Assembly: GCF_003367195.1 (NCBI RefSeq)
Contig: NZ_QRGO01000001.1
Span: forward strand, 411,001-475,000
DNA: 64,000 bases
Reading direction: 5' to 3'
From: Undibacter mobilis
GTDB taxonomy: Bacteria > Pseudomonadota > Alphaproteobacteria > Rhizobiales > Xanthobacteraceae
Both the position numbers and the translations under genes were made by a program. Every line of letters begins with the position of its first letter. Position 1 is the first letter of the stretch. Below, one piece after another: positions 4,744 through 55,778 of this stretch. The notes under the pieces are model-generated. The model saw only the letters and a list, made by a program, of their open reading frames with translations, was not told where the DNA came from and ran no database searches.

Positions 4744-5802
4744 TTACGCCACGCAGCTCTCGAAACCCTTGCGGATCTTCTCTTCCGGCAAATGACGGCC
4801 GATGAAGACGGCGCGGCTGATGCGCTGCTCCCCATCCTTCCATTTGCGCTGGTGATCGCCATCCAGGATCATGTGGACGCCCTGAAACACGAAGCGCTCC
4901 TCATCGTCCTTGAACGACAGGATGCCCTTGCAGCGCAGGATGTCCTTGCCGTCGGTCTGCACCAATTCCTGAATCCACGGGAAGAACTTGTCCGGGTTGA
5001 GCGGCTTGTCCGATGACAGCGCGATCGATTGCATCTCTTCGTCGTGATAGTGCTTCAGCCCACCATGATGGTGATGATGGCCGTGGCCATGATCGTGGTG
5101 GTGATGATCATGATCGTGGTCGTGATCGTCGGCCTCGAGGAAGGCCGGCTCGATCTCGAGGATGCGGTCGAGGTCGAAGGCGTTGCGGCCGAGCACATCC
5201 TTGATATTCACCTGGGCGCGCTCGGTCCGATGCAGCGTGGCATAAGGATTGATGCCGCGAATGCGCGCCTCGACTTCGTCCAGTTCGGCCGGCGTCACGA
5301 GATCGGTCTTGTTGAGCACGATTACGTCGGCAAAGGCGATCTGGTTCTTGGCTTCCGGCGCATCCTTGAGGCGGTCCTTGAGCCACTTGGCATCGGCCAC
5401 CGTGACCACGGCGTCGAGCTTGGTCTTGGCGCCGATATTCTCGTCCATGAAAAAGGTCTGGGCGACCGGCGCCGGATCGGCGAGGCCGGTGGTTTCGACG
5501 ATGATGGCGTCGAATTTGCCCTTGCGGCGCATCAAGCCGTCGATGATGCGGACGAGGTCGCCGCGCACCGTGCAACAGATGCAGCCATTGTTCATCTCGA
5601 AGACTTCCTCGTCGGCGTCCACCACGAGGTCGTTGTCGATGCCGATCTCGCCGAACTCGTTGACGATGACGGCGAACTTCTGGCCGTGCGGCTCGGTCAG
5701 AATGCGGTTCAGCAGCGTGGTCTTGCCGGCGCCGAGATAGCCGGTGAGCACGGTGACAGGGATCTTGCCGGCCGGCGTGGCCGCGGAATTGGCGTCGGTC
5801 AT
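4744..5802 (-). CDS. COG0523 (CobW/ZNG-type) GTPase metallochaperone
   Basis: 352-aa P-loop GTPase of the G3E/COG0523 family, which delivers metals such as zinc or cobalt to client enzymes. Visible: Walker [10 protein letters not shown] (about residue 20), the family signature [12 protein letters not shown] as Walker B/switch, NKTD for guanine recognition, a very His/Asp-rich loop (about residues 225-255, dozens of His and Asp) and a C-terminal CobW_C domain. The His-rich loop favours zinc. The start at 5802 follows AAGGAGCTCATTTCTC; a longer reading frame upstream would overlap the lipoprotein gene and is rejected. No Zur box was found upstream, unlike znuA at 12004. Confidence 0.92.
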
Positions 5803-5881
5803 GAGAAATGAGCTCCTTAGGGCGCACATATAAGGGCTCGCCGCCGGAGGTGCAAAAGCCCTCTTTAGGAGCTGAAATACA

Positions 5882-5907
5882 AAAAGGCCGCCCGAAGGCG
5901 GCCTTTT
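5882..5907 (-). terminator. terminator after the small lipoprotein gene
   Basis: Perfect 11-bp stem AAAAGGCCGCC / GGCGGCCTTTT with a CGAA loop, 29 bp past the stop of the lipoprotein gene and upstream of the COG0523 gene on the same strand. Confidence 0.85.
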
Positions 5908-5935
5908 AGTCCGTCGAAACGACGGAATATCCGGC

Positions 5936-6205
5936 TTAGCGGCAGCGCACGTAGTGACGGCGGCCGTAACGGTCGTGGTAGTAGCAACGGCCCGGACGGG
6001 TCGCGTCCGCAATGATCGCACCGGCAGCAGCACCGACGAGACCACCGGCGACCGCACCGCCGACCGAATTCGTGGCCAGACCGCCGATCAGGGCGCCACC
6101 GCCGCCGCCGATGAGGGCGCCGCCGGCCATACGATCCTGCCGCGCGGTTTCGCAACCACCGAGTGCGAGGGCCAGGGCACTCACAACCAATACCTTCTTG
6201 AGCAT
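5936..6205 (-). CDS. small glycine-zipper lipoprotein
   Basis: 89-aa secreted protein. A short lipoprotein signal ends in LALGGC, whose Cys (about residue 18) would be lipidated. The mature part is a glycine-zipper segment ([20 protein letters not shown]...[15 protein letters not shown], about residues 27-65) of the YMGG/Gly-zipper type, then a basic tail with two Cys. Such proteins sit in the outer membrane. ATG 6205 is preceded by GGGAGAAAAGAAC. Own terminator follows. Role unknown. Confidence 0.85.
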
Positions 6206-6425
6206 GTTCTTTTCTCCCGGGATGTCCAATTGACGTACAAATCGTAACAGGCTGTCAGGATGACATTATGGCCCGCCCCGGTAATGCCCGAAAGCGTCCT
6301 AAGGTTCCGACCGGCCGTGCGCCGAACAGACGTCATACCGGCCGCTGATTAACGGATTTTGGCGTTAAATGCGAAGTTTGGACGGTATCAAACCACCCGC
6401 TGGCGCCGGAAGCCACAAGACTTCC

Positions 6426-7064
6426 CTACCAGCGTAGCAGAACGCGGCCCAGCAGCGCGCCAGCAATGGTCACGCCTGCGATGGCGATCGGATACCAGAC
6501 AGCAACGAACAGCGGCGAATCGTCGGGACAATGGGTGGCGTAGAGCATAGCCGCCAGTCCGCTGGCGGCGAGACCGGCTACCGCACCCGCAACGGCGCCC
6601 GAGGCCGGCGCGCCGCGCCTGAGCACGACCATGAACGCCGCCAGGAGCGGCAGTGACATCAGCGGAATGGCGGTCAGGCAAACGCGCGAATTGGTACCCA
6701 CCAGCCTGACGAGCCACTGGTTCGAGGGAACGGCGAGCAGCTCGGCAACAACCGTGACAAGCAACAGCGCCGGCGCCGCGGCAAGCGCCACGGTGCGCCA
6801 TCCCCGCGCCGGCACCGGCCGGCCGATCTGCAGGACAAGAGCAAAGGCTGTCGCCGCCAGCAGGATCACTTCGACGATCTTGATGTCGAAACGCACCGTG
6901 GCCACCGCCCGGGCAATGTCGGCACGCGGACCGAGCACCAGCAGAAATCCGGCGGCGGACAGCACAAGGCCGACACCAAGCGCCCAGGCGAACTGAGCGC
7001 CCAGCGGTGATTGGGCCGTCGCGCGATCGGCCACCAAAGCCTGAACCAGATCGTCCGTCCGCAT
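6426..7064 (-). CDS. nrsF: NrsF-type (DUF1109) anti-sigma factor
   Basis: 212-aa integral membrane protein with about six hydrophobic segments, matching NrsF (DUF1109), the membrane anti-sigma factor of SigF in Caulobacter. Both conserved cysteines are present: C129 in RVCLTAIPLMSLPLLAAF and C179 in ATHCPDDSPLFVAVWY; in Caulobacter they are needed for sensing metal stress. It starts 1 bp after the stop of the sigma gene, so the two are translated from one mRNA. It probably holds SigF at the membrane until the cysteines are modified. Confidence 0.9.
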   Translation of the reverse strand: MRTDDLVQALVADRATAQSPLGAQFAWALGVGLVLSAAGFLLVLGPRADIARAVATVRFDIKIVEVILLAATAFALVLQIGRPVPARGWRTVALAAAPALLLVTVVAELLAVPSNQWLVRLVGTNSRVCLTAIPLMSLPLLAAFMVVLRRGAPASGAVAGAVAGLAASGLAAMLYATHCPDDSPLFVAVWYPIAIAGVTIAGALLGRVLLRW

Positions 7065-7065
7065 C

Positions 7066-7605
7066 TCAGTCCTGTCCCAGTTGTCTTGCCAGCGCCGCCA
7101 AGCCGCGATGCAACGCGACCCGGACGGCGCCCGCCGTCATCTTTAGCCGTTCCGCAGCCTCGCCGATCGAATGGCCTTCAACCGCAATCGCTTGCACCAC
7201 CGTGCGCTGACCGGTCGGCAGCTTCGCCAGATGGCGCTCGACCTCGCCCGGCGAGGCCGACGGCTCCGGCGCCTCGGCCGCGAGCGTCTCGGAAAACTCG
7301 TCGATCGACAGATCGAACTTGCCGGTGCGCCGGCGCAACACATCGACAACCTTGTAGCGGGCGATGGCATGCACCCACGGCTCGATGGGACGTTCACTGT
7401 CCCAGGTATGCCGCTTCAGATGCACGGCCAGCAGCACCTCCTGAACCACATCCTCCACATCGGCAGCGGACCGCCCCGCGCGCAAAAGATGACGGCGGAT
7501 CGGCGCGCGCAAAGCAGCCGCTATGGCCCGCAGCAGACGCTCGTAAGCCTCCGCATCGCCGGTATTGGCGGCGCGCATCAGGTCTGACCAGCCGGCGTCG
7601 CTCAA
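7066..7605 (-). CDS. sigF: ECF sigma factor, SigF type
   Basis: 179-aa ECF sigma factor. Sigma-2 region about residues 25-95 (DVVQEVLLAVHLKRHTWDSERPIEPWVHAIARYKVVDVLRR) and sigma-4 region about 115-175 (LPTGQRTVVQAIAVEGHSIGEAAERLKMTAGAVRVALHRGL). The frame is open to an ATG at 7689, but TTG 7605 has GAAGGAG 5 nt upstream, matches the family N-terminus, and lies just downstream of a SigF-like promoter, which would be inside the longer frame. It is co-transcribed with nrsF and diverges from the bufferin operon, which it probably activates. Confidence 0.9.
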   Translation of the reverse strand: MSDAGWSDLMRAANTGDAEAYERLLRAIAAALRAPIRRHLLRAGRSAADVEDVVQEVLLAVHLKRHTWDSERPIEPWVHAIARYKVVDVLRRRTGKFDLSIDEFSETLAAEAPEPSASPGEVERHLAKLPTGQRTVVQAIAVEGHSIGEAAERLKMTAGAVRVALHRGLAALARQLGQD

Positions 7606-7623
7606 ACCCGCTCCTTCATCGTC

Positions 7624-7650
7624 ATTCGTAGGTTTCTGGCGTTTGTTACA
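7624..7650 (-). promoter_or_regulatory. putative SigF promoter of sigF-nrsF
   Basis: Read on the minus strand: TGTAAC (7650-7645), 16 nt, CGAAT (7628-7624). The same two boxes occur before bufA. Position implies a very short leader before the TTG start at 7605, so sigF would be autoregulated. The match rests on two sites within this window plus memory of the Caulobacter SigF motif. Confidence 0.55.
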
Positions 7651-7703
7651 CGCCACATCGAAAAATTCGCATTCATAGCCGCCCAACACAAAAACGTGAG
7701 CGA

Positions 7704-7730
7704 TGTAACGCCGGGGGTCCTGGCCGCGAA
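7704..7730 (+). promoter_or_regulatory. putative SigF promoter of the buf operon
   Basis: TGTAAC (7704-7709), 17 nt, CGAA (7727-7730), about 70 bp before the bufA start. It shares both boxes with the site upstream of sigF, as expected of a common ECF sigma factor. Confidence 0.6.
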
Positions 7731-7798
7731 AGACGGGAAGTGAGCCGGGACACCTCCCGCGCCGCGATTCGTAAACGCCTCACAGGAAGGACCATCTT

Positions 7799-8089
7799 AT
7801 GACAAAGAATGCCATCGCCGCCACGACGCTCGCTGGTTCGCTGGCCGCCGCCTTCGCGATGATCTCGGTCGCTTCGGCTGCGCCGGCCCCCGCCCAACCG
7901 AACGCCGACAAATGCTACGGCGTCTCGCTCGCCGGCAAGAACGACTGCGCCGCCGGCCCCGGCACCACCTGCGCCGGCACCTCCAAGGTCGACTATCAGG
8001 GCAATGCCTGGAAGTACGTCGCCAAGGGCACCTGCGCCGCGATGAAGACGCCGAAGGGCATGGGCTCGCTCATGCCGATCAAGAGCTGA
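7799..8089 (+). CDS. bufA1: bufferin precursor (DUF2282 family)
   Basis: 96-aa exported precursor. Sec-type signal (about residues 1-27, ending ASA-AP), then a core with four Cys in [13 protein letters not shown]...TTCAG...KGTCAAM, the DUF2282 pattern. In characterised bufferins these Cys are modified by a DUF692 MNIO enzyme with its DUF2063 partner and the mature peptide sequesters copper in the periplasm. First gene of bufA-bufB-bufC-doxX; ATG preceded by AGGAAGG. Metal specificity here is inferred from the family. Confidence 0.88.
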
Positions 8090-8153
8090 TCGGCCAACGG
8101 GAGGCGCGTCTCCCCGCGCGCCTCCCGCCTCATCATCCCAAGCGAGATCCGCC

Positions 8154-9011
8154 ATGCCCAGCGCTTCCTCTCTCCCCGCCTCCGCCGGCGTCGGCTTCAA
8201 GCCGCAACACTTCGCCGACATACTGGCCGGCGACGCACCGATTGGATTCATCGAAGTCCACGCCGAGAACTACATGGGCGATGGCGGGCCGCCGCATGCG
8301 CAACTCAACACACTGAGTGAACACTTTGCACTTTCGGTGCACGGCGTCGGGCTATCGATCGGCGGCGACGGTCCGCTCGACCCCGCGCATCTCACACGGC
8401 TCAAGACCTTGTGCGACCGGCATCAGCCGCAGAGCTTCTCCGAGCATCTGGCCTGGTCGTCGCACGGCGAGTTTTTCTACAACGACCTGCTGCCGCTGCC
8501 CTACACGGAAGCGACGCTGGCGCGCGTCTGCGAGCATATCGATAGAGTGCAGAGCGCACTCGGCCGCGAAATGCTCCTGGAAAATCCATCGACCTACGTC
8601 ACCTTCACCGACAGCACGATCCCGGAAACAGAATTTCTCGACGTCGTGGCGCGGCGCACCGGTTGCGGCCTGTTGCTCGACGTCAACAATGTCTTCGTCA
8701 GCGCCACAAATCACGGCACCGATCCAGCGGCCTATCTCGCCGCGTTTCCGCTCAGCCGCGTGAAGGAGATCCATCTCGGCGGTCATGACGCACAGAGCGA
8801 CGACGCCGGCGCGCCGCTCCTCATCGACGCGCATGGCACGGCGGTCGCCGATCCGGTCTGGACCCTTTATGAGGCCGTCATCGCCCGCACCGGCCCCGTC
8901 GCAACCTTGATCGAATGGGACAACGACGTGCCGGCCTGGCCGGTGCTGGCAGACGAGGCACGCGCCGCCTCGCGCATTCTCGCACGCGCCGCGGCGCAGG
9001 AGGCGGCGTGA
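8154..9011 (+). CDS. bufB: DUF692 multinuclear iron oxygenase (BufB)
   Basis: 285-aa TIM-barrel MNIO enzyme of the DUF692 family (MbnB relatives), which oxidises Cys residues of a RiPP precursor. Iron-site segments are in the expected order: [53 protein letters not shown] and LIEWDND. It lies 64 bp after bufA and overlaps bufC by one base (TGATG), so translation is coupled. The probable substrate is the four-Cys BufA peptide. Confidence 0.93.
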
Positions 9012-9805
9012 TGACCGATACCTTCCAGACAGTTCAGGCACAGTTCGCCGGCGCACTGATCGATGCCGAGCGTGCGGTGCCGCCTGCCGTATCGTCGCAT
9101 ACCGCGCGCACGCCACAGAAGCGGTTCGCGGTCTACCGCAACAACGTTATCGTTGGTCTCAGCGAAGCCCTGCGCACGCAGTTTCCGGCAACAGAGCGGA
9201 TCGTCGGCCGGGAATTCTTCGCGGCTCTGGCGCGCGTCTATATCGCCAGCGAACCGCCGCGTTCGCCGGTCATGATGAGCTATGGCCAACGATTTCCCGC
9301 ATTCATCGAGAGGTTCGAGCCGGCCGCAACCCTTCCCTATCTCGCCGATGTGGCGCGGCTCGAATTCGCGCGCACGCAAGCCTATCACGCCGCGGACGCA
9401 GCGCCGCTCGACGCAACCGCATGGCAGAGTATCGATGCGGATGCGCTGGGCCAAGCGCGCGTTGGGCTCCATCCATCATTGCGCATTGTGCGTTCGGCCT
9501 TTCCGGTGGTGACAATCTGGTCGATGAACGCCGGCATCATCGAGCCGGCCTCGATCGAAGACTGCGATGCAGAGGATGCCGTGATTATCCGCCCGCACAC
9601 CGACGTCGAAGTGCGCCGGCTGCCGCCCGGCGGCGCGGCGTTCCTCGACGGGCTGGCCGCCGATCTGCCGCTCGGCGCAGCGGCTGCAGCGGCGGCCGAT
9701 GCCGACGTCGCCTTTGACCTGACCGTCAATCTCGCCGGGCTGATCGGCGCCGGATTGACGATTGAGCTTCGTCCCTCCGCGCCCGTGAAAGGCACCGCAT
9801 CATGA
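9011..9805 (+). CDS. bufC: DUF2063 partner protein (BufC)
   Basis: 264-aa protein with an N-terminal DUF2063 domain (about residues 5-95; KRFAVYRNNVIVGLSEALRTQFPATERIVGREFF) and a C-terminal all-beta/helical part, as in BufC/MbnC-like partners that recruit the precursor to the MNIO enzyme. It starts on the TGATG overlap with bufB and ends in an ATGA overlap with doxX. Ala-rich run near residue 220. Function inferred from family and position. Confidence 0.9.
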   Translation: MTDTFQTVQAQFAGALIDAERAVPPAVSSHTARTPQKRFAVYRNNVIVGLSEALRTQFPATERIVGREFFAALARVYIASEPPRSPVMMSYGQRFPAFIERFEPAATLPYLADVARLEFARTQAYHAADAAPLDATAWQSIDADALGQARVGLHPSLRIVRSAFPVVTIWSMNAGIIEPASIEDCDAEDAVIIRPHTDVEVRRLPPGGAAFLDGLAADLPLGAAAAAAADADVAFDLTVNLAGLIGAGLTIELRPSAPVKGTAS

Positions 9806-10269
9806 GCCAGACCTTGATTGCAACTCCAAGACCCACATCGACCGCGCTGGTCAAGCGCGCCATCTCTTTGATGGAAGCCATCCCTTACTGGGTCGTCGCA
9901 TTGATAACGCGGATCGCAATTGCCGGCGTGTTCTGGCAATCCGGCCAGACCAAGGTCGACGGCTTCCATGTTACGGAAAGTGCGATTGAATTGTTTCGCA
10001 GCGAGTATCGTCTGCCGCTGATTGATCCGGCTGTGGCGGCGCATCTGGCCGCGCTCGCCGAACACCTGTTTCCGGTGCTGCTGCTCATCGGTCTCGCAAC
10101 GCGCTTCTCCGCGCTCGCGCTTCTCGGCATGACGTTGGTCATCCAGATCTTCGTATACCCGGATGCCTGGCCGACGCACGGCACCTGGGCGGCCTGCCTC
10201 CTGATGCTGATGACGCGCGGGCCGGGACTGGTGTCGCTCGACGCGCTGATTGCGCGCCGCCACCCCTAA
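9802..10269 (+). CDS. DoxX-family membrane protein
   Basis: 155-aa DoxX protein with four predicted membrane helices (ALITRIAIAGVFWQSGQTK, VAAHLAALAEHLFPVLLLIG, SALALLGMTLVIQIFVY and a last one near residues 130-145). DoxX genes commonly end buf operons; the role may be redox or quinone linked but is not established. Its ATG overlaps the bufC stop, so it belongs to the same transcript. Confidence 0.88.
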   Translation: MSQTLIATPRPTSTALVKRAISLMEAIPYWVVALITRIAIAGVFWQSGQTKVDGFHVTESAIELFRSEYRLPLIDPAVAAHLAALAEHLFPVLLLIGLATRFSALALLGMTLVIQIFVYPDAWPTHGTWAACLLMLMTRGPGLVSLDALIARRHP

Positions 10270-10308
10270 CCCTTCGTCGCTCGGGGAGCCGATAACCGCC
10301 CAAGAAAA

Positions 10309-10330
10309 AGGCGCCGCGTCAGCGGCGCCT
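10309..10330. terminator. terminator between doxX and the L,D-transpeptidase gene
   Basis: Perfect 9-bp stem AGGCGCCGC / GCGGCGCCT, 4-nt loop. On the minus strand it is followed by TTTTTC, so it best terminates the transpeptidase transcript, but it can also stop the converging buf operon. Confidence 0.8.
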
Positions 10331-10362
10331 CAATCCGGATCAAGACGCTCAAACAGATCGCC

Positions 10363-10983
10363 TCAGATCACTTTCACGGTCGCGCCGACCGGCACGCGCT
10401 CGTAAAGGTCGAGGATGTCCTGGTTGAACAGGCGGATGCAGCCGCTCGACACCGCGGTGCCGATGGTCTCCGGCTCGATGGTGCCGTGCAGGCGGAAATA
10501 GGTGTCCTTGCCGCCGCGGTAGAGATAGAGAGCGCGCGGACCGAGCGGGTTTTCCGGGCCGCCCTGCATGCCGCCGGCAAAGGCGCGGTAGCGCGGAATA
10601 GCCGACATCATGGACGCGGTCGGCGTCCAGTGCGGCCACTTCTCCTTGCGGCCGATGACAGCGGTGCCGCGGAAGTTCGCGCCCTCGCTGCGGCCGACAC
10701 CGACGCCGTAGCGGATCGCACGGCCGCCATCCTGCACCAGGTAAAGCCGACGCTGCCCGATATTGACGACGACGGTGCCCGGCTTTTCGTTGCCGCTCCA
10801 CGACACTTCCGTGCGCATCAGGCTCGGATCGACGTTTTCGACCGCGGAAATGGTGTGGCCACCATCGCTGACATAGCCATAGTTGGCGGTCATGCAGCCG
10901 GCGGCGAAAAGCGGCAAACCCAGGGTAAACGCGCGGCGGGAAAGGCGAACAGCGGATTCGGTCGTGATTTTCGGGCGATTCAT
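10363..10983 (-). CDS. L,D-transpeptidase (YkuD), lipoprotein
   Basis: 206-aa exported enzyme that makes or remodels L,D cross-links in peptidoglycan or anchors proteins to it. N-terminal twin-Arg-like/lipobox signal (RRAFTLGLPLFAAGC; Cys about residue 30). The YkuD catalytic domain (about 70-206) holds HGTIEPETIG and the active-site SSGCIRL motif with Cys near residue 183. Monocistronic, with a terminator just downstream. Confidence 0.93.
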   Translation of the reverse strand: MNRPKITTESAVRLSRRAFTLGLPLFAAGCMTANYGYVSDGGHTISAVENVDPSLMRTEVSWSGNEKPGTVVVNIGQRRLYLVQDGGRAIRYGVGVGRSEGANFRGTAVIGRKEKWPHWTPTASMMSAIPRYRAFAGGMQGGPENPLGPRALYLYRGGKDTYFRLHGTIEPETIGTAVSSGCIRLFNQDILDLYERVPVGATVKVI

Positions 10984-11618: not shown

Positions 11619-11837
11619 TCAAGTACGCTTACGCAGCTCGTAGCGCTCTTCCGCGACAATCTGGATCAGATCGCACCCGCATTCGTTGGCGAAGGCGCGC
11701 AAGGCCGCGCGCGCGAACGGGTCAGGCTCCCCGGGGGGAAATAGACCTCCGAACTGCGCATAAGGCAGATCGAAGATGTGCCCCGCCGGCATGTCCGCCA
11801 AGTAGCTCCTGAGCACGTCGCTGGTCAGTTTCGCCAT
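11619..11837 (-). CDS. small hypothetical protein
   Basis: 72-aa protein (MAKLTSDVLRSYLADMPAGH...) with two Cys in NECGCDLIQIVAEERYEL. ATG 11837 is chosen; a 30-codon longer frame would run into a hairpin (11876-11894). Its stop is 15 bp from the convergent 58-aa gene. No family recognised; weak ribosome binding site, so expression is uncertain. Confidence 0.5.
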   Translation of the reverse strand: MAKLTSDVLRSYLADMPAGHIFDLPYAQFGGLFPPGEPDPFARAALRAFANECGCDLIQIVAEERYELRKRT

Positions 11838-11960
11838 GATTTCGATCCAATTGCCCGGCCGGGCACGGCCGTTAGAGGGCGTGATAACGCCCCTTAAGTC
11901 TCTGATCAAAGCCGGAAACCGGAGCATTCTCCTGCAAAGGCCCCGGCGGGCTTGCCAGAG

Positions 11961-11981
11961 GAAATGTTATAATATTACATC
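11961..11981. promoter_or_regulatory. Zur box upstream of znuA
   Basis: GAAATGTTATAATATTACAT is an imperfect palindrome matching the alphaproteobacterial Zur consensus (TGTTATAWTATAACA core). It lies about 25 bp before the znuA start, so zinc-loaded Zur should repress the importer. Confidence 0.85.
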
Positions 11982-12003
11982 CTTCGCGAACCCACCCTCT
12001 GAC

Positions 12004-12912
12004 ATGACGAGTTTGCCCATGCACGCCCGATCCTTTGCTCCTTTCGCGGCTGTCTTCGCGTTGCTTGCGTTGCCCTTTGCGACGGCCCAGGCCCAGACCA
12101 CCGCTTGGCCCCTGAAGGTGGTGGCGGCCGAGAACTTCTACGGCGGCATCGCCGCCCAGATCGGCGGCGCCCATGTCAGCGTCTCCAATATCATCGCCAA
12201 TCCGGATCAGGACCCCCATTCCTTCGAGGCGACGCCCGGCCAGGTGCGCCAGGTGGCCGACGCCAAGATCGTGATTTTCAACGGCGGACACTACGACGAG
12301 TGGATGGAAAAGCTGCTGAAGGCCGCGCCGCGCAAGGACCGCCTCACGGTCAATGCCGCCGCGGTGGTGAAGGCCAAGCACGGCGGCAACCCGCATCTGT
12401 GGTACGCGCCGGCGACCATGCCGGCCGTCGCCAAGGCCATGGCCGCGGCCTTCACCAAGGCCGATGCCGCCCATGCCAGCGATTACGCCGCCAATCTCGA
12501 CAAGGTGCTCGCCGAGCTGGAGCGCGTGACCCAGCGCGTCGGCCAGCTCCGCGAGAAGCACAAGGGCAAGCCCGTGACGGCGACCGAGCCGGTGTTCGGC
12601 CTGATGGCGGAGGCCCTTGGCCTCACCATGCGCAACGAGAAATTCCAGCTCGCACTGATGAATGAATCCGAGCCGAGCGCCCGCGACATTGCCGCTTTCG
12701 AGAGCGACCTCAAAGCCCGCAAGGTGAAGGTGCTGCTCTATAATTCGCAGGTGTCGGAAAAGCTAGCGCAGCGGCTGGTGGACATCGCCAATCAGTCGAA
12801 AGTGCCGGTCGTCGGCGTCACCGAGACCCAGCCGGCCGACAAGTCCTTCGTCGACTGGATGCTCGGCCAGCTCGACGCCCTCGACAAGGCGCTCGACACG
12901 CCCGGCGCGTGA
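12004..12912 (+). CDS. znuA: zinc ABC transporter substrate-binding protein
   Basis: 302-aa periplasmic cluster A-I binding protein. Signal peptide about residues 1-31 (ending AQAQ). Metal-ligand regions: DPHSFEATPGQV (His about 73), NPHLWYAP (His about 136) and the C-terminal VGVTETQP/D region; the His-rich mobile loop of many ZnuA proteins is short or missing. An alternative ATG lies five codons later. Zur box directly upstream and znuC/znuB downstream make zinc the likely cargo. Confidence 0.9.
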   Translation: MTSLPMHARSFAPFAAVFALLALPFATAQAQTTAWPLKVVAAENFYGGIAAQIGGAHVSVSNIIANPDQDPHSFEATPGQVRQVADAKIVIFNGGHYDEWMEKLLKAAPRKDRLTVNAAAVVKAKHGGNPHLWYAPATMPAVAKAMAAAFTKADAAHASDYAANLDKVLAELERVTQRVGQLREKHKGKPVTATEPVFGLMAEALGLTMRNEKFQLALMNESEPSARDIAAFESDLKARKVKVLLYNSQVSEKLAQRLVDIANQSKVPVVGVTETQPADKSFVDWMLGQLDALDKALDTPGA

Positions 12913-12920
12913 TAACGACT

Positions 12921-13072
12921 CCCCACCCCTGCTCCCCTTCGCCGCGAATTGCGGGAAGGCTCAGGGGTGAGGGCTCTTTGCGATTGAAATGCCGGTGCAG
13001 CGGTGACAGCTTCTCCCCCACCCCAGACCCCTCTCAGCCACGCGCAAGCGCGTGTGCGGTGAGGGGAAGACC
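12921..13072. repeat. degenerate GC-rich intergenic repeats
   Basis: Between znuA and znuC lie two C-rich segments and their inverse counterparts (CCCACCCCTGCTCCCC... with ...CAGGGGTGAGGGC; CCCCACCCCAGACCCCTC... with ...GCGGTGAGGGG, the latter enclosing the palindrome ACGCGCAAGCGCGT). They look like dispersed palindromic elements inserted in the operon; they could modulate mRNA stability. Confidence 0.5.
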
Positions 13073-13096
13073 ACCGCATTCGCAGATTGCCATCGG

Positions 13097-13933
13097 ATGA
13101 CCACCAGCGCCGTCATCGAACTCGACCATGCCACCATCGCGATCGGCGGCCGCGCCGTGCTGCGCGAGGTGAGCTTTGCCATTGCGCCCGGCGAATTCAT
13201 CGGCGTGCTGGGACCGAACGGCGCCGGCAAGACGACATTGATGCGCGCGATCCTCGGCCTGCTGCCGCCGGCGGGCGGCGTGCTCCGCGTGTTCGGCGCG
13301 CTCCCGGCGCGCGGCAATGCCACCATCGGCTATCTGCCGCAATTGCGCACCGTGCTGCCCGACCTGCGGATCCGCGGGCTCGATTACATCGCCAGTTCGC
13401 TCAACGGCGAACGCTGGGGCTTGCCGTCGCTGACCGCCGCCGACCGCAACGCCATCGAACAGACGCTGGACGCCGTCGGCGCCGCCGATCTGGCGCGGCG
13501 GCCGCTGTCCGACATGTCGGGCGGCGAACGGCAGCGGCTGCTGCTGGCGCAGGCGCTGATGGGCAACCCGAAACTGCTGCTGCTCGACGAGCCGCTGATC
13601 AGCCTCGACGCCCGGCATCAGGAAGTCGTCATCGAGGTGGTGCGCAAGATCGCGCGCGAACGCGGCATTACGGTTCTGTTCTCGGCGCATGAGCTCAACC
13701 AGTTGCTCGGCGCCATCGACAAGGTGCTCTATCTCGGCAACGGCCACGCCGCGCTCGGCACGGTGGACGAGGTCGTCACGGCGCCGGTGTTGTCGCAGCT
13801 CTACGACACCGAGATCGAGGTCGTGCGCGCCGCCGGCCATATCTTCGTGATGTCGCGCGGCCGCGACGTCGAGCGCGATGCGCATATGCACGATCACGGG
13901 CACGCGCACGACCACCACGGCCATCACCATTAA
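13097..13933 (+). CDS. znuC: zinc ABC transporter ATP-binding protein
   Basis: 278-aa ABC ATPase: Walker A GPNGAGKTT (about 40), Q-loop in YLPQ, signature LSDMSGGERQR, Walker B LLLLDEP, and switch His in FSAHELNQ. The C-terminus adds a His/Asp tail (HMHDHGHAHDHHGHHH) that can bind zinc near the membrane. ATG 13097 is used because the fold starts there; a 15-codon longer frame begins within the repeats. Confidence 0.92.
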   Translation: MTTSAVIELDHATIAIGGRAVLREVSFAIAPGEFIGVLGPNGAGKTTLMRAILGLLPPAGGVLRVFGALPARGNATIGYLPQLRTVLPDLRIRGLDYIASSLNGERWGLPSLTAADRNAIEQTLDAVGAADLARRPLSDMSGGERQRLLLAQALMGNPKLLLLDEPLISLDARHQEVVIEVVRKIARERGITVLFSAHELNQLLGAIDKVLYLGNGHAALGTVDEVVTAPVLSQLYDTEIEVVRAAGHIFVMSRGRDVERDAHMHDHGHAHDHHGHHH

Positions 13934-13945
13934 GGCAACGGCACA

Positions 13946-14746
13946 GTGTTCCAGTACGACTTCGTTATCAACGCCTTCATCGCCGCCGGCATCGTCGCCG
14001 TGGTGTCGGGCGTGACCGGTTACTTCCTGGTGATGCGCGGGCAGACCTTTGCCGGCCACGCGCTGTCGCATATCGGTTTTGCCGGCGCGACCGGCGCGGG
14101 TCTGATCGGCTTGTCGCCGCTGGCGGGCCTTGTCGGCTTCACGCTGATCGCCGGCGTCGCCATGGGGCTGATGGGCGAACGCCTCGCCAACCGCGACGTC
14201 GCCATCGGCGTGGTGCTGTCGCTGGCGCTCGGTTTCGGCATCCTGTTTCTCTATTACTATACGTCGTTCGCCACCCAGGCGACGGCGCTGCTGTTCGGCA
14301 ACGTGCTTGCGGTCGATATGGAGATGATCCGGGCGCTGTCCGCGCTCGGCGCGGCGACACTCATCCTGCTCGCCATCATCATGCGGCCGCTGATCTTCGC
14401 CTCGTTGCAGCCTGAGCTTGCCGAAGCCAAGGGCGTGCCGCTGCGCTTCATCTCGACCGTGTTCCTGGCTTTGGTGGCGCTGGCCGTCGCGGCCTGCGCC
14501 CAGATCGTCGGCGTGCTGATGGTATTCACGCTGATGGTCGGGCCGGCGGCGGCGGCGCAGCGTCTGGTCAACGGCCTGTGGAGTGGGCTCGCGCTCGCTG
14601 CGGTAATCGCGCTGGCCGAGGCCTGGCTCGGCATCGTCATCGCCTACCACACTGACTGGCCGGTGAGCTTCTGCATCGCGCTGCTGAGCGCGACGATCTA
14701 TTTCGCCGCGGCGATGCGGCCGGCGACGGATCGGCACGCTCACTAG
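13946..14746 (+). CDS. znuB: zinc ABC transporter permease
   Basis: 266-aa ABC-3 family permease with about eight hydrophobic helices (for example FIAAGIVAVVSGVTGYFLV, LVGFTLIAGVAMGLMG, AQIVGVLMVFTLMVGPAAAAQRL region). GTG start 12 bp after znuC. Together with ZnuA and ZnuC it forms the high-affinity zinc importer controlled by the Zur box. Confidence 0.92.
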   Translation: MFQYDFVINAFIAAGIVAVVSGVTGYFLVMRGQTFAGHALSHIGFAGATGAGLIGLSPLAGLVGFTLIAGVAMGLMGERLANRDVAIGVVLSLALGFGILFLYYYTSFATQATALLFGNVLAVDMEMIRALSALGAATLILLAIIMRPLIFASLQPELAEAKGVPLRFISTVFLALVALAVAACAQIVGVLMVFTLMVGPAAAAQRLVNGLWSGLALAAVIALAEAWLGIVIAYHTDWPVSFCIALLSATIYFAAAMRPATDRHAH

Positions 14747-54725: not shown

Positions 54726-55778
54726 CTATGCCCGCACGGCCGCCCTGGCGGAGGACTCGCAAGCCTCCATGATGGCGTCGGCCATATGCGAGAGCGAAAC
54801 CTGCTTCATCACGGCGCCGCGCTCGAAGGCAACGCGCGGCATGCCGTAAATGAGCGCCGAGCTCTCGTCCTGGCCGAGCGTGTAGGCGCCGGCCTTGCGC
54901 ATGGCGAGCAGCCCTTCGGCGCCGTCCTTGCCCATGCCGGTCAGGATTGCGCCAACGGCACCACGACCGACGGTGTCGGCGACGGAGCGGAACAGCACAT
55001 CGACGGACGGTCTGTGTCCAGACACCGGCGCCGATTCACTCAGCGTGCAACGATACTGATTAGAGACGCGAACGACCTCGAGGTGATGCGATCCGGGGGC
55101 AATGTAGACATGCCCCGGCTCGATCGGATCGTTATGCTTGGCCTCGGAAACCTTCATTGGGCATTCGCGATTCAATCGCTCGGCAAAAGCCGCCGTGAAT
55201 CGCGGCGGCATGTGCTGCGTGACGACAATAGGCGGGCATTCTGCCGGAAGGTCCATTAATACCGTCTTTAGGGCTTCAACCCCGCCGGTCGACGCGCCAA
55301 TGGCGACGAGCTTTTCCTTGCCAGCGCTGTAGATTCGATTCGTCTTGCGCGGCGCCGCCGCGCCGCGACCAACACGCGCCCGCGCGGCTTGCTTGACCTT
55401 GCTCCGCAATTCGCCGGCGATTTCCGACAGACCTTGTGCAGCGTCGTGGACCGGCTTCGCGATGAAATCGACGGCGCCAATTTCCAGCGCCTCAAGTGTG
55501 GTTTCAGCGCCGGCCTGCGTCAGCGTCGAGACCATGACGACCGGCATAGGCCGCAGTGTCATGATTTTGCGCAGGAACGTCACGCCGTCCATGTTCGGCA
55601 TCTCGACGTCGAGCGTTACGACATCCGGGTTTAGCGCCTTGATACGATCGCGCGCGATCAGAGGATCGCCAGCAGTGCCGACAACCTCGATCTCCGGGTC
55701 CTCCGACAGCAGCATAGATAACAGCTGACGGATGACGGCGGAGTCGTCGACGATAAGAACCTTGATTTTCTTGTCCAT
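54726..55778 (-). CDS. cheB: chemotaxis protein-glutamate methylesterase CheB
   Basis: 350 aa. Receiver domain (KVLIVDDSAVIRQLLSMLL; Asp in PDVVTLDVEMPNMDG) and CheB methylesterase domain with Ser in AIGASTGGVEAL, His in VVTQHMPPRF and Asp in LTGMGKDGAEG. Removes methyl groups from MCPs for adaptation. ATG 55778 follows AGGAAACGCC. Confidence 0.96.
   Translation of the reverse strand: MDKKIKVLIVDDSAVIRQLLSMLLSEDPEIEVVGTAGDPLIARDRIKALNPDVVTLDVEMPNMDGVTFLRKIMTLRPMPVVMVSTLTQAGAETTLEALEIGAVDFIAKPVHDAAQGLSEIAGELRSKVKQAARARVGRGAAAPRKTNRIYSAGKEKLVAIGASTGGVEALKTVLMDLPAECPPIVVTQHMPPRFTAAFAERLNRECPMKVSEAKHNDPIEPGHVYIAPGSHHLEVVRVSNQYRCTLSESAPVSGHRPSVDVLFRSVADTVGRGAVGAILTGMGKDGAEGLLAMRKAGAYTLGQDESSALIYGMPRVAFERGAVMKQVSLSHMADAIMEACESSARAAVRA

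Follow-up and report, generated by a model that had tools for sequence, protein, structure and literature searches.

The 64,000-nucleotide (nt) stretch of Undibacter mobilis DNA analyzed here (the window) comes from contig 1 of a 4.1-Mb genome. It contains a single, complete bufferin cluster of the Buf1 type, comprising bufA, bufB, bufC, and doxX with a divergent sigF-nrsF pair. Its features are listed below, with cut-offs in parentheses after the family scores.

6426 to 7064, minus strand: nrsF, membrane anti-sigma factor; PF06532, 178.7 bits (26.8); Cys129 and Cys179
7066 to 7605, minus strand: sigF, extracytoplasmic function (ECF) sigma factor, probable start at 7605; PF08281 (Sigma70 r4), 44.2; PF04542 (r2), 40.2; NF009165, 248.6 bits (198)
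7625 to 7649, minus strand: possible, weak sigF promoter read from the sequence, GTAAC-N16-CGAA, spacing one shorter than that of bufA
7705 to 7730, plus strand: sigma-F type promoter motif 5' of bufA, GTAACG-N16-CGAA, one letter off the Caulobacter GTAACC-N16-CGAA
7799 to 8089, plus strand: bufA, DUF2282 (Buf1) precursor, 96 residues; PF10048, 84.6 bits (22.4)
8098 to 8127, plus strand: intercistronic hairpin of 12 pairs with a loop of 6, from folding and recurrence in relatives
8154 to 9011, plus strand: bufB, MNIO (DUF692) bufferin maturase, 285 residues; PF05114, 355.8 bits; NF050167 MNIO_BufB, 382.3 bits (310)
9011 to 9805, plus strand: bufC, DUF2063 partner protein, 264 residues; PF09836, 92.1 bits (27.2), residues 8 to 99
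9802 to 10269, plus strand: doxX, DoxX membrane protein, 155 residues; PF07681, 67 bits (23.6)

The first-pass annotation had recognized a bufferin operon with its own sigma/anti-sigma pair, and this is backed by the protein families, the way the genes are arranged, the residues conserved in them, and the promoter sequence. The MNIO (PF05114, NF050167), the DUF2063 partner (PF09836), and DoxX (PF07681) that it named score above their cut-offs, and the order bufA-bufB-bufC is that of Buf1 clusters. Two of its details hold in part. Both genes of the divergent pair are present, but nrsF (6426 to 7064) falls outside the interval 7066 to 10269 to which the operon had been assigned. The tightly overlapping gene order applies to bufB-bufC and bufC-doxX, which overlap by a few bases, but not to bufA-bufB, which are 64 nt apart with a strong hairpin between them.

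Genome-wide, PF05114, PF10048, and PF06532 each match once, so this is the sole such cluster found in the genome. The relatives used for comparison (L004 to L083) are the best 80 of at least 567 confirmed stretches related to BufB. Across these 80 loci, BufC is present in 80, BufA in 79, DoxX in 67, NrsF in 53, and SigF in 51, the misses coming partly from cuts at contig ends. In wider samples, 27 of 60 relatives have PF10048, 97 of 299 genomes from the same phylum have PF05114, and 355 plasmid records contain an MNIO relative. Three relatives (L041, L082, L083) carry sigF-nrsF 3' of doxX on the same strand, rather than divergently upstream. Beyond doxX in the window, a terminator-like stem with a T-run occurs on the minus strand at 10308 to 10331, placed to serve a gene for a YkuD-type L,D-transpeptidase (10363 to 10983) that converges on doxX.

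A recurrent hairpin between bufA and bufB

The hairpin begins 8 nt after the bufA stop codon and ends 26 nt before bufB. The bufA-bufB gap (64 nt, folded as 70 nt) reaches -31.6 kcal/mol (z, -3.6), and none of 200 shuffles was as good. Strong stems are a regular property of this gap: a stem score of at least 20 occurs in 77 of 79 bufA-bufB gaps (the window and 78 relatives, without L068, whose stretch lacks bufA, and L043, dropped for Ns), as opposed to 17.6% of dinucleotide shuffles. Among other stretches, the same threshold is reached by 9 of 79 lying upstream of bufA, 10 of 79 from within bufB, and 63 of 395 placed at random. At a score of at least 25, the difference is wider, with 66 of 79 gaps against 3.2% of shuffles, 1 of 79 upstream stretches, none of 79 inside bufB, and 14 of 395 random stretches. 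Shuffled individually (100 per gap), 51 of the 79 gaps were matched by no shuffle and 8 were matched by five or more. The choice of bufB start sets the gap ends in all of these counts, and the rows analyzed include two pairs of near-copies (L032/L042 and L064/L138).

Gaps between other genes seldom resemble this one. Among gaps of 40 to 130 nt, stems scoring at least 20 occur in 73 of 74 bufA-bufB gaps versus 18 of 67 same-direction control gaps, and stems scoring at least 25 occur in 62 of 74 versus 7 of 67 (Fisher P = 1e-19), the controls having been taken with a crude open reading frame (ORF) caller from the same loci and the window. At the other junctions of these operons, gaps seldom reach 40 nt: 7 of 81 do so at bufB-bufC (stem score of at least 20 in 3) and 15 of 66 at bufC-doxX (stem score of at least 20 in 2).

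The sequence of the hairpin changes while its pairing persists. Among 127 hairpins, which are those of 142 gaps that passed the stem cut-off (L098 and L138 left out), 111 are below 70% ungapped identity to those previously counted. The rows share ancestry, and each structure was derived from the very sequences on which it was then counted, so the figures on covariation and on G-U versus A-C that follow are optimistic. Fifteen of 18 Rhizobiaceae gaps were aligned (without L019, L026, and L034), and in them both partners have changed at 4 of 9 pairs; the covariation score was reached by 0 of 500 shuffles and the number of double-changed pairs by 4 of 500, and sliding the partner by 1 to 3 columns leaves 0 to 1 such pairs. 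In six same-genus gaps (the window and five loci, with six more same-genus genomes having a match left out), one pair runs G-C, G-U, A-U. When stems were chosen without favoring G-U, the non-Watson-Crick oppositions comprise 23 G-U versus 6 A-C (P = 0.002), and this excess of G-U points to coding-strand RNA as the acting form. On this comparative evidence, the hairpin looks like an RNA under selection. Operators, too, are typically perfect inverted repeats, so a DNA palindrome serving as a binding site was weighed; it is improbable given how little sequence the hairpins share and the predominance of G-U over A-C.

Hairpins also occur well beyond the closest relatives. A wide set (L092 to L182) provided 88 usable loci of 91, with L107, L109, and L132 dropped for lack of a precursor; 40 of its loci (L140 to L179) are hand-picked same-phylum matches, and precursor classes were assigned by our own patterns, not by models. 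Among gaps of at least 40 nt, stems scoring at least 20 occur in 25 of 27 Buf1, 13 of 14 Buf2, 16 of 20 EGKCG, 2 of 3 Buf1-like, and 2 of 2 other operons. At most 1 of 100 shuffles matched 47 of these 66 gaps, longer gaps scoring by chance more often.

Several results count against a hairpin that is general to these operons and maintained as RNA. In the wide set, all 22 gaps shorter than 40 nt lack one, that of the Cupriavidus metallidurans locus (L180; 31 nt) included, and so does an operon on an Escherichia coli plasmid (L182), which was counted as a long gap without a hairpin because the bufB start in our script is later than that annotated (gap of 85 versus 31 nt). From the short gaps and these two loci, the hairpin is common but dispensable. 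Stems scoring at least 20 within 67 nt also follow doxX (24 of 65) and nrsF (12 of 54), above chance and far from general. The six gaps from the same genus give a covariation score that 35 of 500 shuffles also attain, a modest result from few sequences.

Two further observations concern loci of the wide set. Precursors of the MEKCYGINAAYKNDC...SPGHSCAGQ type (L143, L148, L160, L161, L163, L175) are separated from the MNIO gene by 4 to 36 nt, with no strong hairpin. In L182 (CP091408.1, 2750 to 6120), the Buf1 operon has a TetR/AcrR-type regulator annotated upstream and no sigF-nrsF within the stretch.

No Rfam family matched between 6000 and 11000 at E values up to 1. The words "hairpin," "stem-loop," and "terminator" are absent from the main texts of PMC12452194, PMC13097082, PMC3511200, and PMC12538549, and "hairpin" and "terminator" are absent from PMC8224329. 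Among listed papers containing both MNIO and DUF692, none had the word "stem-loop," and a review that mentions MNIO (PMC11002830) uses "hairpin" once. No prior report of a bufA-bufB hairpin was found in the literature searched, which did not include the founding bufferin paper, where a hairpin may be described.

Possible roles of the hairpin

We infer that the hairpin would favor bufA mRNA over bufBC mRNA. Within the transcript, it would maintain bufA at a higher level than bufBC-doxX, such that substrate exceeds enzyme, either because it shields the 3' end of bufA against exonucleases or because some of the transcripts stop there. Other operons for ribosomally synthesized and posttranslationally modified peptides (RiPPs), such as those of lantibiotics, also have hairpins downstream of the precursor gene; a literature search on this point gave nothing useful.

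An alternative is a plain, leaky intrinsic terminator, at which most transcripts would end after bufA and read-through would yield bufBC-doxX. Strong stems do start just past bufA, a median of 10 nt after its stop codon, and TTTT lies within 8 nt of the stem in 5 of 62 strong stems. But these 62 usually lack a U-tract, with a mean of 2.0 T in the 8 nt after the stem, and the window stem has CCTCATCA after it, in place of a U-tract, and is absent from the list of terminator-like sites. Plain termination is thus possible but doubtful.

It is unlikely that the hairpin governs the translation or processing of bufB, through 5'-end protection or ribosome access, and not bufA mRNA. Stems end a median of 26 nt before bufB, and in the window the predicted Shine-Dalgarno pairing is weaker for bufB (-4.2 kcal/mol) than for bufA (-6.5 kcal/mol). 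However, the window stem ends 26 nt before the start and leaves the ribosome-binding site uncovered, and the median Shine-Dalgarno pairing of bufB across loci is -6.55. Of the three, protection of the bufA 3' end seems the likeliest, ahead of plain termination, with control of bufB in last place.

The chances appear about even that the precursor-MNIO hairpin is a selected RNA part common to Buf1, Buf2, and EGKCG operons in Pseudomonadota, retained as its sequence turns over, and that it determines how much peptide is made relative to enzyme; BufBC or metal might even exert autoregulation through it. If confirmed, the hairpin would explain how a bulk, stoichiometric metal buffer is made alongside a scarce iron enzyme. 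A single stem that can be broken and restored would also offer a simple experimental handle, and it might help to locate precursor genes beside MNIO genes.

Precursor, maturation proteins, and proposed metal control

The first-pass annotation described a DUF2282 precursor with a signal peptide and four cysteines, which agrees with the PF10048 match, the cysteines at residues 39, 50, 58, and 79, and a Sec-type signal peptide at about residues 1 to 27 (by eye). The BufA2 model scores 19.6 on this precursor, below its cut-off of 60. The further suggestion that cysteine spacing and a GGKND context might carry a different modification or metal preference finds no support, since 79 of 80 precursors (the window's and those of 79 relatives) have the 10-7-20 spacing. 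The GGKND string is not in the sequence, which reads LAGKND. The stretch from first to last cysteine is identical, letter for letter, to that of a Pseudorhodoplanes metagenome-assembled genome (L005), spacing and context are those of the consensus, and no point in favor was found, leaving a new modification or another metal scarcely credible. The idea of an unusual precursor was rejected on the common spacing.

Antoine and colleagues (PMC12452194) describe four conserved cysteines in such precursors, with modification of the central ones, a disulfide between the first and the last, and thiooxazoles that sequester copper. From its membership in this family, BufA would have its central Cys50 and Cys58 oxidized to thiooxazoles by BufB and BufC in the cytoplasm and would form a Cys39-Cys79 disulfide; it would be exported via Sec and then buffer copper in the periplasm. 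For a relative, PMC13097082 reports that each modified cysteine loses 4 Da.

The sequences of the two maturation proteins are consistent with such roles. Counting H, E, D, N, C, R, W, and Y only, BufB has 38 residues that at least 95% of up to 80 relatives retain, D225, H227, and D256 among them, and N178/N179, D225, and H227 are conserved among relatives. Through an alignment to PDB 3BWW (E = 2e-40), N178/N179, D225, and H227 seem to match N175, D242, and H244, reported as essential in HvfB (PMC13419390), with an inferred correspondence of numbering. By sequence, BufC had no match in PDB up to an E value of 1, and for this reason its fold was predicted (predicted local distance difference test [pLDDT] score of 89.5, from 29 sequences). 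Over its whole length, the predicted fold matches 8HCI chain A of the TglHI complex (E = 7.6e-6; template modeling [TM] score, 0.58) and 3DEE (E = 6e-4), whereas the RiPP recognition element (RRE) protein TbiB1 matches at E values of 2.8 to 5.5 only. Chain A was taken as the TglI partner because chain D is the MNIO, and 3DEE is named as a PME1 partner protein in PMC13097082. The predicted model thus supports an MNIO-partner fold for BufC.

On the opposite strand, the listed ORF for sigF starts at a GTG at 7689, and the family match (NF009165) begins at residue 31 of this longer frame. A TTG at 7605 to 7603 has GGAG upstream, as read from the sequence, and gives a SigF of the usual length; for these three reasons, the start is probably TTG 7605 rather than GTG 7689. 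NrsF retains both of the sensing cysteines that had been noted in it, Cys129 and Cys179, and every aligned copy has them (53 of 53 and 54 of 54, counting the window). Kohler and colleagues (PMC3511200) report that in Caulobacter, NrsF with altered cysteines partly loses its hold on SigF, that the inducers are chromium and cadmium, and that the sigma-F motif is GTAACC-N16-CGAA. In PMC8224329, the SigF regulon is induced by copper, and a sigF mutant is copper sensitive.

A motif of this type recurs before bufA. Among 77 loci whose upstream sequence is long enough, GTAAC-N17-CGAA, which keeps the spacing of the window motif, is present in 20 (19 of 76 relatives and the window), as opposed to 0 to 3 for other spacings from 13 to 20 and none for the reversed control; a relaxed form with CG[AT]A occurs in 26 of 77. 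A further motif match in the window (55594 to 55619) lies inside a chemotaxis methylesterase-like frame (by eye) and is taken as chance. No sigma-F motif was found in stretches of about 3.5 kb around four genes of the Oxidored_molyb family, which we take to be that of the Caulobacter SigF target YedY, and no sigma-70 promoter pattern was found in 6300 to 10400.

By analogy with Caulobacter, periplasmic metal stress would act on the two NrsF cysteines and free SigF, which would then transcribe bufABC-doxX from the GTAACG-N16-CGAA motif; it is reasonable to expect, as the first-pass annotation did, that the peptide is made under metal stress. Overall, it is quite likely that this is a Buf1-type bufferin operon in which metal acts through NrsF and SigF, modified BufA buffers copper, and the hairpin favors bufA mRNA over that of bufBC-doxX. 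Some evidence pulls the other way. NCBIfam equivalog cut-offs for HvfC, HvfX, and NrsF are all unreached, with NF050145 HvfC scoring 46.9 bits on BufC (cut-off, 142) and NF042994 AntiSigF_NrsF scoring 97.6 bits on NrsF (cut-off, 300). The exact promoter form is missing before bufA in 57 of 77 loci, and the motif is not enriched genome-wide, with 16 matches and 16 in the reversed control, a parity that speaks against a wider SigF regulon. In Caulobacter, loss of sigF or the MNIO genes gave no added sensitivity to dichromate or cadmium, according to PMC3511200.

Genes of zinc-uptake type flank the operon: a CobW-type GTPase with a His-rich stretch (4744 to 6057) on one side and a ZnuA-type binding protein (11836 to 12912) on the other, followed by frames resembling an ABC ATPase with a His-rich end and a permease (13052 to 14746, by eye). 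These neighbors would fit an operon that serves zinc and not copper, which is nevertheless very improbable. Neither the CobW-type nor the ZnuA-type gene was found around the 80 related loci, in stretches extending at most 4 kb from bufB in either direction. Among nine stretches from the same genus, both genes occur only in the two closest (L183, L184); L185 to L189 (16 to 20 kb) have neither, and L190 and L191 are too short to tell. Being common only to the two closest stretches, these genes give no support to a zinc role, and their absence around the 80 loci and from L185 to L189 speaks against such a role based on neighbors.

Relation to known systems

The gene set, including the sigma/anti-sigma pair, is already published: Buf1 clusters consist of a DUF2282 precursor, an MNIO, a DUF2063 protein, and DoxX, and sigma factor and NrsF genes occur in Buf1 but not Buf2 clusters (PMC12452194). 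The genes, and the mechanism for the most part, are already known, so what is new in them here is only this organism's copy, and the operon is one further case in a large known family of copper-buffering peptides.

The Caulobacter vibrioides Buf1 cluster (sigF-nrsF, CC3254-CC3257) shares the gene set with sigF-nrsF, the four-cysteine precursor family, and a nearly identical sigma-F promoter; Caulobacter differs in having a second MNIO operon, where U. mobilis has one cluster only. On plasmid 3 of Nitrobacter hamburgensis X14 (L181), genes for DUF1109, a sigma factor, DUF2282, DUF692, a partner annotated as DNA binding, and DoxX are arranged alike, and a hairpin scoring 31 lies in a 67-nt gap; that cluster differs in being plasmid borne and in having a longer divergent region. 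The locus of Cupriavidus metallidurans CH34 (L180), which we take to be the gig operon, likewise combines an MNIO with a DUF2282 precursor but has no hairpin in its 31-nt gap. The name gig is that of PMC12452194 and PMC8224329. Buf2 and EGKCG (oxazolin) clusters belong to other precursor families, yet in them, too, the MNIO gene follows that of a cysteine-rich precursor, with a hairpin in most gaps of at least 40 nt.

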